Shown piece after piece: positions 3,790 to 20,017 of a DNA stretch of 26,870 nucleotides (positions are counted from its first letter, which is position 1; every line of letters starts with the position of its first letter). Where the stretch lies: assembly GCA_030595925.1 (NCBI GenBank), contig JAUVLC010000025.1:1-26870 (forward strand), written 5' to 3'. Position numbers and translations under genes: made by a program. Source of the DNA: Clostridia bacterium. GTDB taxonomy: Bacteria; CBDUZB01; JAGLHV01. Below the pieces are notes generated by a model. That model searched no databases. It was given only the letters and a program-made list of their open reading frames with translations, and had not been told where the DNA came from.

Positions 3790-5304
3790 ATGTTTGAATG
3801 GAGATTACCGTTAAGGAAGTTGTTATTACGTCTATTGCGGGGAATAAAGAAAAAATCCTCAAAAGCTTCTGTTCGAAGAAACGGCGTTTTTTTAGAAAAT
3901 AAGATGCGTATGCCCATCTGGGCAGTAGGCAGTTTAACTTTTTTTATTTTATATTGGATTTTATTTCTTGAACTTGGCCTGAATTGGAATAATGCAATAG
4001 GAATATTTATTTTTGTCTCTTTATTAATTTTTGGTAGTAGATTTTATTTACATCGTTATTCTCCGGAAATTATTTCCAACAACAATCGATTAGCTCTGTT
4101 GAGTGTAATAGCAAGTGTGATTGTGTTATTTATGGTAATGGTTGTAGAGCTTAAAATGACTATTCCGGGTATTTCCCCTTATATCGTTCCTATTCCGGCA
4201 GCAGCGATGTTGGTGACTATTCTTCTGGGAAGTAGTCCGGCGATAATGATTGTTTTTGCTTTAAGTATGATTTTGAGTATGTTAAATGGCTTTAATTTTA
4301 ATTGTTTTTTTGTAGGTTTTATCGGGGGGGTAACAGGTATCGGAAGCGTTTTAGGAGTACGCAACAGAAAAGATTTTACACGTGCGGGTTTATTTATAAA
4401 CATTGCTAATATTTTGTCGATATTAATTCTGGGGTTTTTGCAAAACACTTCTCCTTTTATAATAGGTAAAGATTTCCTATGGGGAATAGGAAACGGATTT
4501 TTATCTGTAATTTTAGCGATAGGTCTTTTGCCTTATCTGGAAAGTCTCTTTTCTATTACTACGGATATTAAACTTTTAGAGTTAGCTGATTTTAATCAGC
4601 CGTTACTTAAAAGATTGATGTTAGAAGCTCCCGGGACTTATCATCATAGTCTTTTAGTAGGTAATTTGGTGGAAACTGCTGCAGAAATAATAGGGGCTAA
4701 TCCTTTGTTAGCCAGAGTAGGGGCCTATTATCATGATATTGGGAAGCTTACTAAACCTGAATATTTTATTGAGAATATTCCTACTTTTAAAAGCAAACAC
4801 GATACGTTAGTCCCTTCGATGAGCAGCCTTATTTTAGTTTCTCATGTAAAAGACGGAGTAGCTTTGGCGAAAGAATATCATATAGATAAGGGAATAGTAG
4901 ATATTATTCAACAACATCATGGGACGTCTTTAATTCACTTTTTTTATCAGAAGGCTTTGGAGGAATATGAATCAGAAGAAATTGAAGAGGGGACATATCG
5001 TTATCCCGGCCCAAAACCTAAAACCAGAGAAGCAGCTTTGATAATGTTAGCGGATGCAGTAGAAGCTGCTTCCCGTTCATTGGAAGAACCCTCTCATCGT
5101 AGAATAGAAGAGATAGTGAATAAAATTATTAATAATAAATTTATTGATGAGCAGTTAAATGATTGTAATATTACTTTATCTAATTTGCATCGTATTGCGG
5201 AGAGTTTTGTTCATTCTTTGGTTAGCATTTATCATTCAAGAATAGAATATCCCGGATATGGAGAAGAAAAAGAGCAGGAAAAAAGTGAAAATTTTAATTC
5301 ATAA
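3790..5304 (+). CDS. 7TM-HD membrane phosphodiesterase, PgpH-like, short form
   Basis: Membrane protein of 504 residues with a basic N-terminus, seven or eight hydrophobic segments between about 41 and 255, and a cytoplasmic HD domain. The HD metal residues are visible: His285/286 in YHHSLL, H315-D316 in HDIGK, a His in VSHVKDG, the pair in QQHHG and the Asp in LADAVEAASR. The family (7TMR-HD; PgpH/YqfF) hydrolyses cyclic di-AMP to pApA. Compared with Bacillus or Listeria PgpH of around 700 residues, the large extracytoplasmic 7TMR-HDED domain is absent, so this copy has no obvious ligand-binding head. The position between phoH and ybeY is the classic one for this family. Start: AAAAAGGAGAGAATA before ATG, a strong site. 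c-di-AMP specificity is inferred. Confidence 0.9.
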   Translation: MFEWRLPLRKLLLRLLRGIKKKSSKASVRRNGVFLENKMRMPIWAVGSLTFFILYWILFLELGLNWNNAIGIFIFVSLLIFGSRFYLHRYSPEIISNNNRLALLSVIASVIVLFMVMVVELKMTIPGISPYIVPIPAAAMLVTILLGSSPAIMIVFALSMILSMLNGFNFNCFFVGFIGGVTGIGSVLGVRNRKDFTRAGLFINIANILSILILGFLQNTSPFIIGKDFLWGIGNGFLSVILAIGLLPYLESLFSITTDIKLLELADFNQPLLKRLMLEAPGTYHHSLLVGNLVETAAEIIGANPLLARVGAYYHDIGKLTKPEYFIENIPTFKSKHDTLVPSMSSLILVSHVKDGVALAKEYHIDKGIVDIIQQHHGTSLIHFFYQKALEEYESEEIEEGTYRYPGPKPKTREAALIMLADAVEAASRSLEEPSHRRIEEIVNKIINNKFIDEQLNDCNITLSNLHRIAESFVHSLVSIYHSRIEYPGYGEEKEQEKSENFNS

Positions 5305-14213: not shown

Positions 14214-16325
14214 ATGGAAGATGATGTAAGAGGGCATGAAGAAGAAATGAATGAACAAACACAAGAAGAAGAGTTGGATGAAAAAACCTGTTTGGAAAAT
14301 AGTCCCAAGATAACGGTAAAAACGAATGGGGAAATAGTATTAGAGTATGAAATGCTTAAAAATCTGGTAGTTATTGGCCGTAGAGCAGGGAATGATATAG
14401 TTCTTGACAGTCGCAAAGTATCCCGCAAACATGCTCAGATAAAGAGAGAAGGAGATGATTTTACCATAGAGGATTTGCAGAGTACAGGAGGTACGGAGAT
14501 TCATGGGGAAAAAATAACTTCGCGGCAGATATCTACGGGAGAGATTATTAAAATAGGGGATTTTGAACTGCATTTTAATTCAGGTATAGAAGGAGAAGAA
14601 AAAACAGTTTTTGAAGAAGAGGATAAAACTATTTTTGATGACGATAAAACTGTTTTCTATGAAGAACCAATAGCAAAGTTGATTGTTGAACGCTCACAAA
14701 ATCTTGAGGGTGAAATTAGCATAGAAGGGGAAACTATAATCGGGCGGGGAGAAGAAGCTACTATTCAATTGGAAGACCAGCGTGCTTCCCGGGAGCATTG
14801 TAAGATTGTCTTAGTGGAAAACAATTTTGTGCTTACAGATTTAGAAAGTAGTAATGGTACTTATGTTAATGGGGAAAAAGTAACTGAAAAGCCTCTGGAA
14901 AATGGAGACAAAATTCAAATTGGTGATGCTGTTTTCGAATTTCAAATGGAAATAGGTGTTAAGGGTGGAACTAAAAAAATTATAGGGAAAAAACTGGTGA
15001 AAAACATAGGGTTGGTGGCATTAGGGGTGTTTGTTTTTGTTGTGCTTTTTCAATTAGCCAATAGGGAAAAACCTCATTCAGTCGTGCTTAGCCAAATATG
15101 GGAAAAGCAGGTTAAAGGAGAAATTCGTATTTGCCCTGCTATAGGGGATTTAAATAATGATACCTTCAATGACATTGTAGTTGCTGATACTGAAGGATTT
15201 ATTTATGCCATGGATGGTCGCACGGGAGGTAGTATTTGGAATAAACCGTATATTGCCGGCCGGCCTGTTCTTTCTTCTCCCGTATTGGGGAATATTAATC
15301 ATGAGGGTGGTAATTTAGATGTTATCATTGGGGCTGAGAGAAAAAGAGTGATTGGTGGAATGGATAGTTCCCAAACAGGAAAAGTATTTGCTATTGATGG
15401 TGATAAGGGGAAGCTAATTTGGGAAAGTAGTGTAGTTAAAGGAGGTATTATTTCCTCTCCGGCATTGGCCGATTTAAATGCGGATAAAGTTTTGGATGCG
15501 GTTGTGGGTTCAAAAGATAAGTTTATTTATGCTCTGGATGGGAGACAGGGAGGAGAAATTTGGAATTTTGAAACCGAAAGTGGAATAGGTGCTACCCCTT
15601 CTTTAACGGATATTAACAGTGATGGTGTTCTTGATGTAATTGTTGGTGCGAAAGATAATCTTTATGCTTTATCCGGAACGGACGGTAAAAAATTATGGCT
15701 TTTTCATCGGGTAGGAAATCCATCCTCAACTGCTATTGGGAAATTCGATGAGGATGATATTGACGATGTAGTTGTTGCTTTTGCCGGAGAAATAGTAGTG
15801 CTTAACGGAAAAACAGGTGCTATTATTTGGGAATGGGAAAGTTCTGTAGCATTAACAGATGAAACATCGTTGCCCATTGCTCCTGTTTTAGGAGATGTTA
15901 ATAATGATGGTGTTCTGGATGTTGTGTGTGGTTCGGATAAAGGGCATGTTTATGCTGTAAATGGAGTAACCGAAGGGGAAAAATATCTCTGGGATTTTAA
16001 TATGGGAGAAGAAATTCCGTTTTCTGCCGCACTTTTTGATTTTAACGGTGATAAAACTATTGATGTAGCTATTGTTTCACGGAAGGGGATTATTTATTTG
16101 GTTAGCGGAGAAGACGGACATTTATTATGTCAATTTGATATTCATTCTCCGGTAGAAGTTCCTTTAGTAATTGCTGATGTAAATGCTAATGGAATAGCTG
16201 ATTTGGTTGTCGGTACCCTGGATGGTAAAGTTATAGTTGTAGAATCAAATGCAAAGTGCAATGAGAAAGAAATTATCTGGGGTGTTTTAGGAGGTAATAG
16301 TTTACATACTGCCCGGGCGAAGTAA
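14214..16325 (+). CDS. Membrane protein with two FHA domains and an outside beta-propeller
   Basis: A 703-residue protein whose exact architecture I do not recognise. Residues 1-40 are acidic. FHA1 (about 43-122) has VIGRRAGNDIVL and RKVSRKHAQI. An acidic linker (126-152) carries three K-T-[V/I]-F motifs. FHA2 (about 155-246) has IIGRGEEATIQL, RASREHCKI and ESSNGTYVNG. One membrane span (about 264-282) follows a lysine-rich stop, giving N-in, C-out topology. Residues 290-703 hold eight repeats of about 50 residues mixing FG-GAP-like acidic loops (DLNNDTFND, DINSDGVLD, DVNNDGVLD) with PQQ-propeller-like IYAMDGxTGxxIW strands. FHA domains bind phospho-threonine, and PP2C and kinase genes follow, so this is probably a sensor or scaffold. 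FHA1 has TGG where the canonical SxNG loop would be. ATG 14214 was chosen for its AAGGAGG site. Confidence 0.85.
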   Translation: MEDDVRGHEEEMNEQTQEEELDEKTCLENSPKITVKTNGEIVLEYEMLKNLVVIGRRAGNDIVLDSRKVSRKHAQIKREGDDFTIEDLQSTGGTEIHGEKITSRQISTGEIIKIGDFELHFNSGIEGEEKTVFEEEDKTIFDDDKTVFYEEPIAKLIVERSQNLEGEISIEGETIIGRGEEATIQLEDQRASREHCKIVLVENNFVLTDLESSNGTYVNGEKVTEKPLENGDKIQIGDAVFEFQMEIGVKGGTKKIIGKKLVKNIGLVALGVFVFVVLFQLANREKPHSVVLSQIWEKQVKGEIRICPAIGDLNNDTFNDIVVADTEGFIYAMDGRTGGSIWNKPYIAGRPVLSSPVLGNINHEGGNLDVIIGAERKRVIGGMDSSQTGKVFAIDGDKGKLIWESSVVKGGIISSPALADLNADKVLDAVVGSKDKFIYALDGRQGGEIWNFETESGIGATPSLTDINSDGVLDVIVGAKDNLYALSGTDGKKLWLFHRVGNPSSTAIGKFDEDDIDDVVVAFAGEIVVLNGKTGAIIWEWESSVALTDETSLPIAPVLGDVNNDGVLDVVCGSDKGHVYAVNGVTEGEKYLWDFNMGEEIPFSAALFDFNGDKTIDVAIVSRKGIIYLVSGEDGHLLCQFDIHSPVEVPLVIADVNANGIADLVVGTLDGKVIVVESNAKCNEKEIIWGVLGGNSLHTARAK

Positions 16326-16421
16326 ACAGGAGATATAGATATTCTGAAAATAGGTTAGCAAAGAATAGGGAGCTATCGGAGCGAATTAAACGTTATTTCC
16401 TGTTAAATTTCGGGAGTGATG

Positions 16422-16447
16422 AATGCAATCGTTACGGACGATGCATT
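16422..16447 (+). repeat. Hairpin in the leader of the PP2C gene
   Basis: AATGCA-A-TCGT (16422-16432) pairs with ACGA-TGCATT (16438-16447). This gives a ten-base-pair stem with one bulged A and a five-base loop. No T run follows, so it is not a convincing terminator. It lies in the 177-base gap between the FHA-propeller and PP2C genes and may be a small dispersed palindrome or an mRNA processing or stability element. Confidence 0.4.
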
Positions 16448-16502
16448 TCGAATAAATCTTATTTACAAAAGAACCAGTCTTTGGGGTTTTAAAAAAGGAA
16501 AG

Positions 16503-17285
16503 ATGAAAAGAATGAGAATTTCTGTTTTTAGTATTACTGATTTAGGAAAGAGACGTTCTTTAAATGAAGATTTTTATATTTGTGACAGGGAGAGACAAGT
16601 ATATTTGGTTGCTGACGGAATGGGAGGAAGAGAAGGCGGAGAAGTAGCAAGCAGGATGGCGGGGGAGACATTTATGGCAAAAATTTCTCCCTTTTTGGAA
16701 GAGGAAGATATTACGGTCCCTTTTGAATTTAAAGAAGAGGAAGATTTTTTTTCTGCAATTATTAAATATGCAATTGAACAAGCTAATACTGCAGTGTATC
16801 AATATGGTTTAAAGGAAACTTCAAAAAAAGGAATGGGAACTACTTTTACCGTAGCGATTCCTTATGAAGGGAAGCTTTATGTAGGCCATGTCGGGGATTC
16901 CAGATTATATAGAATTCGTCAGGGAAGTGTTGTCCAGCTCTCGGAAGATCATACTTTAGTACAGCAGATGATTAAAGAAGGACGTCTTGATGCAAAGGGT
17001 GCCCGACAACATCAAAAAAAGAATGTAATTACCCGTTCCCTTGGCCCCAAAAAAATAGTTAAACCCGATATTTTTTTTAAACAAATCATTAAAGGTGATA
17101 TTTATTTGCTTTGTAGTGATGGTTTATACCAGATGGTAGAAGATGACGAATTGTTTGGGGAACTTCTTTCTCTCGGGGAAAAAGATTTAGAAACCGTAGG
17201 GAAGAATCTTGTTTCTGTTGCTAATAAAAAAGGAGGAAAAGATAATATAACCTTACTCCTTTTTAGAGTAGAGGAAGAAAATTAA
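16503..17285 (+). CDS. PP2C-type Ser/Thr protein phosphatase
   Basis: Soluble phosphatase of 260 residues, a standard length for bacterial Stp/PrpC enzymes, with no membrane segment. Metal-binding and catalytic motifs are present in order: DLGKRRSLNEDFY (Asp23), VADGMGGREGGE (Asp39), a GTTFTVAI strand, VGHVGDSRLYRI, LSEDHTLVQQMIKEGRL, LCSDGLYQMVEDDEL and GGKDNITLLLF. It should remove phosphate from Ser/Thr residues using two Mn2+ or Mg2+ ions. The adjoining kinase and FHA protein are the obvious partners. The start is uncertain: ATG 16503 has AAGG only four bases away, ATG 16512 is in frame and gives MRISVFS, and an upstream extension to 16416 has no family similarity. The kinase follows after seven bases. 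Confidence 0.93.
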   Translation: MKRMRISVFSITDLGKRRSLNEDFYICDRERQVYLVADGMGGREGGEVASRMAGETFMAKISPFLEEEDITVPFEFKEEEDFFSAIIKYAIEQANTAVYQYGLKETSKKGMGTTFTVAIPYEGKLYVGHVGDSRLYRIRQGSVVQLSEDHTLVQQMIKEGRLDAKGARQHQKKNVITRSLGPKKIVKPDIFFKQIIKGDIYLLCSDGLYQMVEDDELFGELLSLGEKDLETVGKNLVSVANKKGGKDNITLLLFRVEEEN

Positions 17286-17292
17286 TCCAAAA

Positions 17293-18468
17293 ATGCTTAA
17301 AGAATTAGGAAAATATAAAATAATTAAACAACTTAGTACAGGTAGTGCAGCTAATATTTATTTAGCAGTGCAAAAGAACCTGGAAAGACAGGTTGTTATT
17401 AAGCAGTTAATGCGGGAATTTTCTCTGCATAAAAAACTGGTCGCCCGTTTTGAACAGGAAGCAAAGGTAATTTCTTCCCTCCGTTATGATTCTATTATCC
17501 ATATTTATGATTATTGGAAAAAAGGTAATTCGTACTATATTGTGATGGAATATGTTTCCGGTAAAACCCTCAAGGAAATCCTTCACCAAACCTCTTTTTT
17601 CCCGAAGACGGAAGGTTTAATCATTTTCTACGAAATTCTGAAAGCTCTGGAATATGCTCATAATCAGGGGGTTGTTCACCGTGATTTAAAACCGGCTAAT
17701 ATTATGATTTCTGAAGAAGGAAGGTTGAAAATTTTAGACTTTGGTATTGCTCATGTTGTGGAAAAAAATATGACGAACATGGGTGTAGTTATCGGAACTT
17801 ATTCTTATATGTCTCCGGAACAGGCAATTGGGAATAAAATAGATCATCGTTCGGATATTTTTTCTTTAGGGATAGTAATGTATGAACTTTTATGTGGAAA
17901 GAAACCTTTTAAAAAAGATGAGCAGGGGGAAGTGACTGATAAAATAATTAACCAAAAACCCCTTTCCGTAAGGAAAATTAATTCCCAAATTCCCTGGGGG
18001 GTGGGGAGAATTATAAAGAAATGTTTGAGAAAGAAACCGAATAAACGATTTCAGGATACGGGACAAATTAAAAAAAAGTTAGAAAAATATATTCGTAAAT
18101 TACCCGTGGATCATCAGTCGGTGCTAAAGAAATTTGTAGAAGATTCAACCCCATTACCTGATCAAAAGACCGTTTTAATGGAGAAAATAGAAAAGAAAGA
18201 AAAAAAAGAGAAAAGAAAAAAGAAGAAAAAAAGTAAAATAAAAGAAAAAATAGCAAAGCTTAAAGATTTTTTAAAGATAACTAAAACCCCCCGTTTTAGA
18301 ATTTTTATAATAACAATGTTGTTATTTATTATCCTGATAGAAATAGAAGTTTTGTTTAATTTTTTTAATATAACACTTAGTGTACAAAAGGAATGGTTAA
18401 TATCGTCTGGTAAATGGATTTTTTTAATGACAAAAAAAATGGGGCACAAAGTAGGGGAGTGGCGGTGA
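17293..18468 (+). CDS. Membrane-anchored Ser/Thr protein kinase (Hanks type)
   Basis: PknB-like kinase of 391 residues. Kinase domain 8-270: glycine loop LSTGSAANIYLA (canonical G-x-G-x-x-G replaced, only Gly17 kept), Lys37 in VVIK, alpha-C Glu56, catalytic HRD at 129-131 in VVHRDLKPANIM, DFG at 149-151, Thr161 in the activation segment and MSPEQA at 173-178. A linker (285-325) holds DQKTVLM with Thr293 and a very lysine-rich stretch. One membrane helix (about 336-358) leaves only some 32 residues outside, so there is no PASTA or other sensor. It sits directly behind the PP2C phosphatase and the FHA-propeller gene, and the latter may supply the missing sensor. The ribosome-binding site is weak, so coupling to the PP2C gene is likely. 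Confidence 0.93.
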   Translation: MLKELGKYKIIKQLSTGSAANIYLAVQKNLERQVVIKQLMREFSLHKKLVARFEQEAKVISSLRYDSIIHIYDYWKKGNSYYIVMEYVSGKTLKEILHQTSFFPKTEGLIIFYEILKALEYAHNQGVVHRDLKPANIMISEEGRLKILDFGIAHVVEKNMTNMGVVIGTYSYMSPEQAIGNKIDHRSDIFSLGIVMYELLCGKKPFKKDEQGEVTDKIINQKPLSVRKINSQIPWGVGRIIKKCLRKKPNKRFQDTGQIKKKLEKYIRKLPVDHQSVLKKFVEDSTPLPDQKTVLMEKIEKKEKKEKRKKKKKSKIKEKIAKLKDFLKITKTPRFRIFIITMLLFIILIEIEVLFNFFNITLSVQKEWLISSGKWIFLMTKKMGHKVGEWR

Positions 18469-18610: not shown

Positions 18611-20017
18611 TTAACTATTGTTTGCGGAAAAATCCGGTACTTTTAAATTTAACTCTTTCCATATATTCGGATACTCCATACATAAGTATACAACAGCATT
18701 TTTATCGTATTTTTTTATCCATGTCAGCATTTTTAGGTAAATTTCTTTTCGCATAAAGTCCGGATAACGCATCTTTTTGTCGTCCGGATGAATTAATAGT
18801 TCACCATTAAGAATTTTAGTGGAAGGGAATCTATTTTCGATTATTGGTTTTAGTGTTCGATGAAATCTTAAACTTCCGATACTTATCCAGGCAATATTTT
18901 TTTCTGCATAATGATACATTTTTTCAATAATATCCTGATAGTCTTTTTCCCATGTTTCATAGTAAATTACCGGGTCAAAATGAAAACCGACCTTAAAGCC
19001 GTTATCTACCAGTTTTTTTGCGGATTTAAGTCTTTCTTCCAGTGAAGGAGTAAAATGTTCTTCGGAATCTATTATCTTTTGAGGATTTATAGACCAGGAG
19101 ATTACAATATGTGGAGTGGGCTTAAAGTTCAAAATATTATCAATATTTGTGCTTTTTGTTTTGAATTCCAGAATATATTCTGTTTGGTTAAAAAAAGGAA
19201 TTATGTATTTTGAATATTCAGTAATATCGTCAAGGGCGAGTGAATCAGTAAATTCACCGGTACCAATCCTTTTTTTAATTATTTTTGTTTGTTGTAACAG
19301 TGGTTTTAACTTACTTAAAATTTCTTCTATATTTACCGGCATAAGTATTCCGGGGAAATTTGTATAATGTTGAAGGTAACAATAAGTGCAGTCATAAGGG
19401 CAGCCAAAACCTAAGTTGAAAATGTAATATCCGCAGGAGATTACATTTTTTGTACAGGGACATGGTTTTAGTATATCGTAATTTTGCCTGATAAGAAAAA
19501 GTTTGTCTTTTTCCAGAAAACTAGTATTTTTTATGTTTTGGGTTTTGAAATTTTTTACTTTAGAAATAATTTCAGGGGTGATTTTGGGGAATTTGTGTAA
19601 TATTTTTTGAGTAAGAGGATAATTTAAACATTCTTTTTCAATATAAATAGATTTTGGTTCGAATTTTCCGGAATAAATGTATTTTTTATCCGGGTTTAAG
19701 TTTTTTAATGGGGGTATAAATATTTCATAATTTTGAATGTTATCATTTTTAATTGTTTCCGGATAACGTAATTGCAAAAGGATTTTTTTAAACGTGCTGA
19801 ACTCAACTTTTTGTTTAAGTAAATATGATTTGAGCAAATCAAGATTTAAAAACTGTGAAATGGTAATCTCATTTTTTTTCAAAATTTCAAAGATTAACCT
19901 TATAATTTCATTTTTTTTATTTAAGCCCAAATAAAAAGGAATCTTTTCTTTAATTAATTTTTTAATTTCTTTTTTTGTAATTTCATATTGGTTGGTTGTA
20001 TTTTTTTGCCAGTGCAA
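18611..20017 (-). CDS. Radical SAM protein of the spore photoproduct lyase family
   Basis: A 468-residue protein. Residues 1-180 are a lysine-rich helical region without motifs I know. From about 184 a radical SAM core has the iron-sulfur motif Cys206-x3-Cys210-x2-Cys213 in FGCPYDCTYCYLQ, preceded by further cysteines 186, 188 and 195 in KPCPCTKNVISCGY. GTGEFTDSLALD (252-263), VISWSINPQ, GFHFDPV and VYLCMEYPNIW all fit the SPL family. Spore photoproduct lyase repairs thymine dimers in spore DNA. I see no Cys at the place of the Bacillus hydrogen donor (Cys141, CTSD segment), where EFTDS stands instead, so photoproduct repair is doubtful. This longer subtype is common in non-sporulating bacteria, with unknown substrate. 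Its start overlaps the glycosyltransferase gene by 35 bases. Confidence 0.82.
   Translation of the reverse strand: MHWQKNTTNQYEITKKEIKKLIKEKIPFYLGLNKKNEIIRLIFEILKKNEITISQFLNLDLLKSYLLKQKVEFSTFKKILLQLRYPETIKNDNIQNYEIFIPPLKNLNPDKKYIYSGKFEPKSIYIEKECLNYPLTQKILHKFPKITPEIISKVKNFKTQNIKNTSFLEKDKLFLIRQNYDILKPCPCTKNVISCGYYIFNLGFGCPYDCTYCYLQHYTNFPGILMPVNIEEILSKLKPLLQQTKIIKKRIGTGEFTDSLALDDITEYSKYIIPFFNQTEYILEFKTKSTNIDNILNFKPTPHIVISWSINPQKIIDSEEHFTPSLEERLKSAKKLVDNGFKVGFHFDPVIYYETWEKDYQDIIEKMYHYAEKNIAWISIGSLRFHRTLKPIIENRFPSTKILNGELLIHPDDKKMRYPDFMRKEIYLKMLTWIKKYDKNAVVYLCMEYPNIWKELNLKVPDFSANNS

Follow-up and report, generated by a model that had tools for sequence, protein, structure and literature searches.

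A linked kinase, PP2C phosphatase and membrane-spanning FHA-propeller protein form a conserved bacterial cassette with a putative phospho-threonine docking motif

Three adjacent plus-strand genes in the window (the whole 26,870-nucleotide stretch analysed, lying on contig C17; the genome measures 2.6 Mb) encode an FHA-FHA-TM-propeller protein, a PP2C phosphatase and a membrane kinase. Coordinates and Pfam matches agree on this with an earlier, sequence-only reading of the locus, which had described a set of writer, eraser and reader. The three genes and their features are as follows:

14214-16325, plus strand: reader gene, 703 aa, FHA1-linker-FHA2-TM-propeller (Pfam, start site, AlphaFold)
14307-14579, plus strand: FHA1, residues 32-122 (model)
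14601-14657, plus strand: three KT[VI]F motifs (KTVFEEEDKTIFDDDKTVF) in the disordered linker between the FHA domains (shuffling test)
14667-14954, plus strand: FHA2, residues 152-247, with the full GR / SxxH / NG set
14994-15059, plus strand: TM helix of the reader, Lys-rich toward the FHA side (hydropathy; model helix 265-282)
15081-16313, plus strand: propeller, predicted to lie outside (Pfam, model, Foldseek)
16503-17285, plus strand: PP2C phosphatase (eraser), Stp1/IreP type, without TM (Pfam, NCBIfam, motifs)
17293-18468, plus strand: PknB-like Ser/Thr kinase (writer), one TM, minimal outside part (Pkinase E 5e-59)
18166-18177, plus strand: KTVL motif in the kinase juxtamembrane linker, counterpart of KT[VI]F (sequence)
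18301-18357, plus strand: kinase TM helix, residues 337-355 (hydropathy)

The reader starts at ATG 14214, immediately 3' of a GGAGG, and Pfam finds FHA twice (E 1.9e-39) together with a PQQ_2/FG-GAP propeller. The AlphaFold model (mean pLDDT 75.9) places FHA1 at residues 32-122, FHA2 at 152-247, a TM helix at about 261-282 and the propeller at 290-700, with a disordered linker (pLDDT ~25-28) between the two FHA domains, which are predicted to be cytoplasmic, with the propeller outside the cell. FHA2 possesses all of the phospho-threonine-binding FHA residues tested (GR, SxxH and NG), and its phosphate-binding Arg, Ser and His (GR, SxxH) are kept in every version aligned; it is the likely phospho-threonine-binding domain of the reader, and the solved structures it matches include GarA, OdhI and TB39.8. 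FHA1 retains GR and SxxH and has GG where NG is expected, the Asn being lost. Its Arg is lost in the 23 other aligned homologues covering the region, and the window reader is the sole row to keep it. Eight DxNxD-type (FG-GAP) loops, possibly calcium-binding, are distributed along the propeller, whose nearest fold by Foldseek is BamB (E 2e-16). Two FHA protein models stay under their cut-offs on the reader, namely TIGR03354 (TagH/Fha-type; 74 bits, cut-off 120) and NF049868 (FhaB/FipA; 113.5 bits, cut-off 125), and the reader has two FHA domains and a propeller.

The phosphatase gene matches Pfam PP2C (E 1e-14), passes the NCBIfam Stp1/IreP model NF033484 (242.1 bits against a cut-off of 230) and carries the conserved PP2C motifs NED, DGMGG, SDG and GG.DN. 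Its start is 16503 (AAGGAAAG-ATG) or 16512; the start at 16416 given by the mechanical ORF call lies too far upstream, because the orthologue L009 starts at the equivalent of the later position, and the ribosome site agrees. The kinase has its catalytic residues (K37, HRD 129-131, DFG 149-151 and SPE), with Ser in place of the first P-loop Gly, and scores 323 bits (E 4e-96) on the PknB-PASTA model NF033483, whose cut-off is 450. Hardly any outside domain had been ascribed to it, and indeed its one TM (337-355) is followed by ~36 residues with no PASTA match; by hydropathy, an outside domain is absent from both the kinase and the PP2C of the window.

A scan for promoters and terminators gave no more matches than shuffled sequence did. 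A minus-strand gene adjoining the cassette (18611-20017) encodes a radical SAM protein resembling spore photoproduct lyase, and a glycosyltransferase gene lies next to it. Farther off, at 3790-5304, a 7TM-HD protein (PgpH-like by family) is encoded beside PhoH, YbeY, DAGK and CNNM genes.

In the set searched, the phylum of the window consists of three genomes of one genus, and the window form of the cassette is found solely in that genus. Sister genome G002 carries the three window genes in the same order on one contig, and G001 holds equivalent parts spread over two contigs. The window genome also has a second, diverged cassette on contig C69 (L005:3931-13256), in which reader, PP2C and kinase follow one another as in the window. 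This cassette encodes an FHA-FHA-TM-propeller-TM protein, a PP2C with a TM, and a large kinase with a receiver domain, a TM, PEGA and TPR. An exported coiled-coil protein encoded upstream of it resembles, by eye, the gene that precedes the reader in the second phylum described below. At a third locus, on C74 (L006), a gene with a single FHA domain precedes one for a short TM kinase. Contig C71 of the same genome (G000) encodes a 1757-aa protein (L007:2376-7649) with an N-terminal Ser/Thr kinase domain and, by eye, further parts that resemble ATPase, GAF and histidine kinase domains.

Full-length identity between the window cassette and the C69/second-phylum form is 30-32%. The branch of the window reader is very long (3.19 changes per site), and its propeller alone matches the paralogue (6e-41) only slightly better than an unrelated propeller (1e-36). 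The window set may have been separately assembled, because its kinase is nearer to the C74 kinase than to the C69 cassette kinase; the window cassette thus arose either by duplication and strong divergence or by assembly in parallel.

A reader profile search of 386 genomes in 327 genera confined full-length matches to the genus of the window and one other phylum, where the FHA-FHA-TM-propeller architecture occurs in 38 of 294 genomes and 15 of 90 genera. We fetched 22 of these 38 neighbourhoods, of which 21 were evaluable, with sequence past the reader gene. PP2C is the next gene downstream of the reader in all 21, mostly with a 4-nt overlap, and the kinase lies directly upstream, or some kb upstream, in most neighbourhoods whose fetched stretch reaches that far; exported and PorV/PorQ-like genes intervene where the distance is some kb. 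At one locus (L091), no kinase was seen within ~9 kb. The linkage of FHA-propeller homologues to PP2C and kinase genes on which the sequence-only reading had staked its proposal is thus borne out. This commoner form (C69 and the second phylum) pairs a kinase bearing a TM and a PEGA ectodomain with a PP2C bearing a TM and a PEGA-like domain. The PP2C is followed by a response-regulator-like gene in all seven loci listed, confirmed by Pfam in L095 and recognised by eye in the others. At L083:655-2265, downstream of the reader, the PP2C and two response-regulator-like genes, lies a gene for an FHA protein that also has, judging by eye, parts resembling GAF and nucleotide cyclase domains, a possible output of the pathway. 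FlgD/T9SS-like sorting ends and PorV/PorQ-like proteins are encoded at L084:4708-6963 and L095:13403-15628, suggesting an envelope or secretion link for the common form. A Planctomycetota locus (L004) was rejected as a homologue, matching in the propeller only, with no FHA, kinase or PP2C seen, and the plasmids searched held no full-length homologue.

Co-inheritance is clearest in the best family (f57, 76 genomes), where the reader is present in 33 genomes, the PP2C in 38 and the kinase in 40, as nested sets. Both partners accompany the reader in 33/33 genomes, and 36 of the 76 have none of the three (Fisher p 3e-16 for reader/PP2C and 6e-15 for reader/kinase, kinship between genomes ignored). 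Genomes with one or both partners and no reader have contig-end or short-contig loci (G429, G548, G567) or broken genes (G464, G500 and G552, and a fragment in G453); in G464, G500 and G552, the kinase and/or PP2C genes contain stops or are split into pieces. Joint decay of this kind in reduced genomes argues that the genes belong to a single unit, and the relatives of the cassette in the second phylum are inherited or lost as such. Kept in sister genomes, and linked and co-inherited in its diverged versions elsewhere, the cassette exceeds chance: it is real and conserved in kind, and it follows an established plan with familiar parts.

A short threonine motif suggests how these parts may dock. 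The sequence-only reading made no mention of this KT[VI]F motif, and the second cassette and the homologues lay beyond its reach. The window reader contains three KT[VI]F copies against 0.017 expected per shuffled protein (maximum of two in 5000 shuffles), and the KTVFEEEDKTIFDDDKTVF stretch of its linker is also kept in a sister species (G001; L001). We propose these copies as phospho-threonine sites. The window kinase carries the counterpart KTVL, with Met instead of Glu at +3, and at this site the sister-species kinases have KTIL (G002) and KTVL (G001). Across cassette kinases, the linker between kinase domain and TM is long, variable in length and unalignable except for a terminal KT[VI]F, mostly GKT[VI]FEE, placed 16-24 residues ahead of the TM. 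All ten kinase linkers contain KT[VI]F, where shuffling predicts 0.009, a count that is descriptive, the motif having been picked after it was sighted; the ten linkers, that of the C69 kinase included, span two phyla at ~30% identity. The invariance of the motif next to unalignable sequence, by contrast, is seen directly. The motif could also be a membrane-proximal structural element and no phospho-site. Docking may differ between the window form and the common form, because the second-phylum reader linkers lack KT[VI]F and the FHA2 domains there mostly have GG in place of NG.

A wider KT[VI]F regulon was considered and rejected. Elsewhere in family f57, KT[VI]FEE falls mostly in GatB and ABC-F proteins (among the loci read, judged by eye), and KT[VI]F[DE] beyond the cassette genes of the window's own genus falls in unrelated proteins, with total matches not above control. 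No target list follows from the motif, because its matches outside the cassette fall in unrelated proteins at control level.

The best explanation, and one we hold to be somewhat probable, is that the three genes form a single inner-membrane unit for phospho-threonine signalling, in which KT[VI]F/L motifs are marked, read and erased. The kinase would phosphorylate the Thr of these motifs: in the common form, the target would be the motif that the kinase itself carries next to the membrane, and in the window the three reader-linker copies would be targets as well. FHA2, and in the window perhaps FHA1 too, would bind the marked motif and thereby join, cluster or hold the kinase, and the PP2C would erase the phosphate. 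Since the reader crosses the membrane, its propeller could recognise an envelope partner by binding or sensing it, and this might alter how strongly the kinase is engaged.

Whether this unit works as a receptor is a further step. We tentatively entertain as possible, with somewhat less confidence, that the propeller steers a nearly headless kinase in trans, with the FHA domain docked on a conserved juxtamembrane KT[VI]F phospho-site and a dedicated PP2C resetting the system, and that this holds for at least two phyla. The sequence-only reading had gone further, describing a split receptor in which sensing has moved to the FHA protein. A move of sensing fits the window cassette, where the propeller is the sole large outside domain of the set, and a split receptor is a possible reading there. 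As a general rule, the idea is not supported: sensing has not simply moved, because the kinase and PP2C of the commoner form carry PEGA or PEGA-like outside domains of their own.

These same outside domains make an effector or scaffold role for the FHA-propeller protein the main rival to the signalling unit. Here, the protein would be a downstream effector, an envelope scaffold whose assembly depends on a phosphorylation switch like that of T6SS Fha1; its propeller would aid envelope assembly without sensing, and the signal would enter through the outside domains of kinase and phosphatase. The PEGA ectodomains on the common-form kinase and PP2C fit this account, as do the BamB-like fold of the propeller and the PorV/PorQ-like and exported genes of the second-phylum neighbourhoods. 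The neighbours in the window are housekeeping genes, however, and no other input is visible in the window cassette, because its kinase and PP2C lack outside domains; overall, we consider an effector or scaffold role rather unlikely.

Two further accounts concern whether the genes belong together and in what kind of system. A generic PknB/PP2C pair could merely lie beside an unrelated FHA-propeller gene, with independent shuffling of common domains producing a layout like that on C69. The long branch of the window reader and the nearly equal scores of its propeller against unrelated and paralogous propellers lend this some weight, but the identical gene order of the C69 cassette, the linkage retained in G002 with equivalent parts in G001, and the KT[VI]F/L motif common to reader and kinase make it quite improbable. 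The strong match of the kinase to PADLOC PD-T4-6 models (E 1e-89) would suggest an anti-phage defence kinase system, yet these models match Hanks kinases generally, the window kinase matches PknB-PASTA at 4e-96, and housekeeping genes surround the cassette. We regard a defence role as very improbable.

For the phospho-threonine signalling unit that we prefer, the co-inherited genes define kinase, phosphatase and reader as a single pathway in poorly known phyla, and the short threonine motif predicts a docking point, so the idea is testable with one peptide and one mutation. Outside-signal input to bacterial Hanks kinases is known mostly where the kinase bears its own sensor, and here it is the phospho-reader that bears the outside domain. 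Literature searches on FHA with FG-GAP, PEGA or PQQ found no description of this arrangement among the papers covered, in line with the sequence-only reading, which had not recognised it as a described system.

The individual parts have well-described parallels. In the T6SS pathway, a kinase (PpkA), a PP2C (PppA) and an FHA protein (Fha) are co-encoded, the Fha protein is described as cytoplasmic, and in Agrobacterium it is recruited by phospho-TssL through the peptide SSWQDLPpTVVEITEE (PMC5995506). The cassette likewise groups kinase, PP2C and FHA genes, and T6SS Fha is a kinase substrate or recruited to phospho-threonine (pTVVE); unlike Fha, the cassette FHA protein spans the membrane with its propeller outside, and no T6SS genes are among the window genes scanned. 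PknB of the mycobacterial cluster bears an outside PASTA sensor. That cluster, PknA-PknB-PstP-FhaA-FhaB of mycobacteria and corynebacteria, combines kinase, phosphatase and two FHA genes, and PknA phosphorylates FipA, whose FHA domain is required for the interaction (PMC3989709, PMC1262709). It differs from the present cassette, in which the outside domain is on the reader and cell-division neighbours are absent. Next to its FHA domain, GarA has a disordered stretch with an ETTSVF motif that Hanks kinases phosphorylate (PMC5448819). GarA and OdhI share with the reader an FHA domain plus a disordered Thr motif and are among its nearest solved FHA structures, whereas GarA regulates metabolism and has neither a TM nor a propeller. 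The PrkC/Stp pair is comparable in its Stp1/IreP-level PP2C and PknB-like kinase domain; the cassette kinase, in contrast, lacks PASTA repeats, and an FHA-propeller reader is added. PknD and AfsK-type kinases tie a propeller to Ser/Thr kinase signalling, and that of PknD lies outside the cell (PMC3601408, PMC1262709). Their propeller is fused to the kinase, whereas that of the cassette is fused to the phospho-reader. Writer, eraser and reader sets with FHA domains are already known, and the new element here is that the reader, rather than the kinase, carries the fused propeller.
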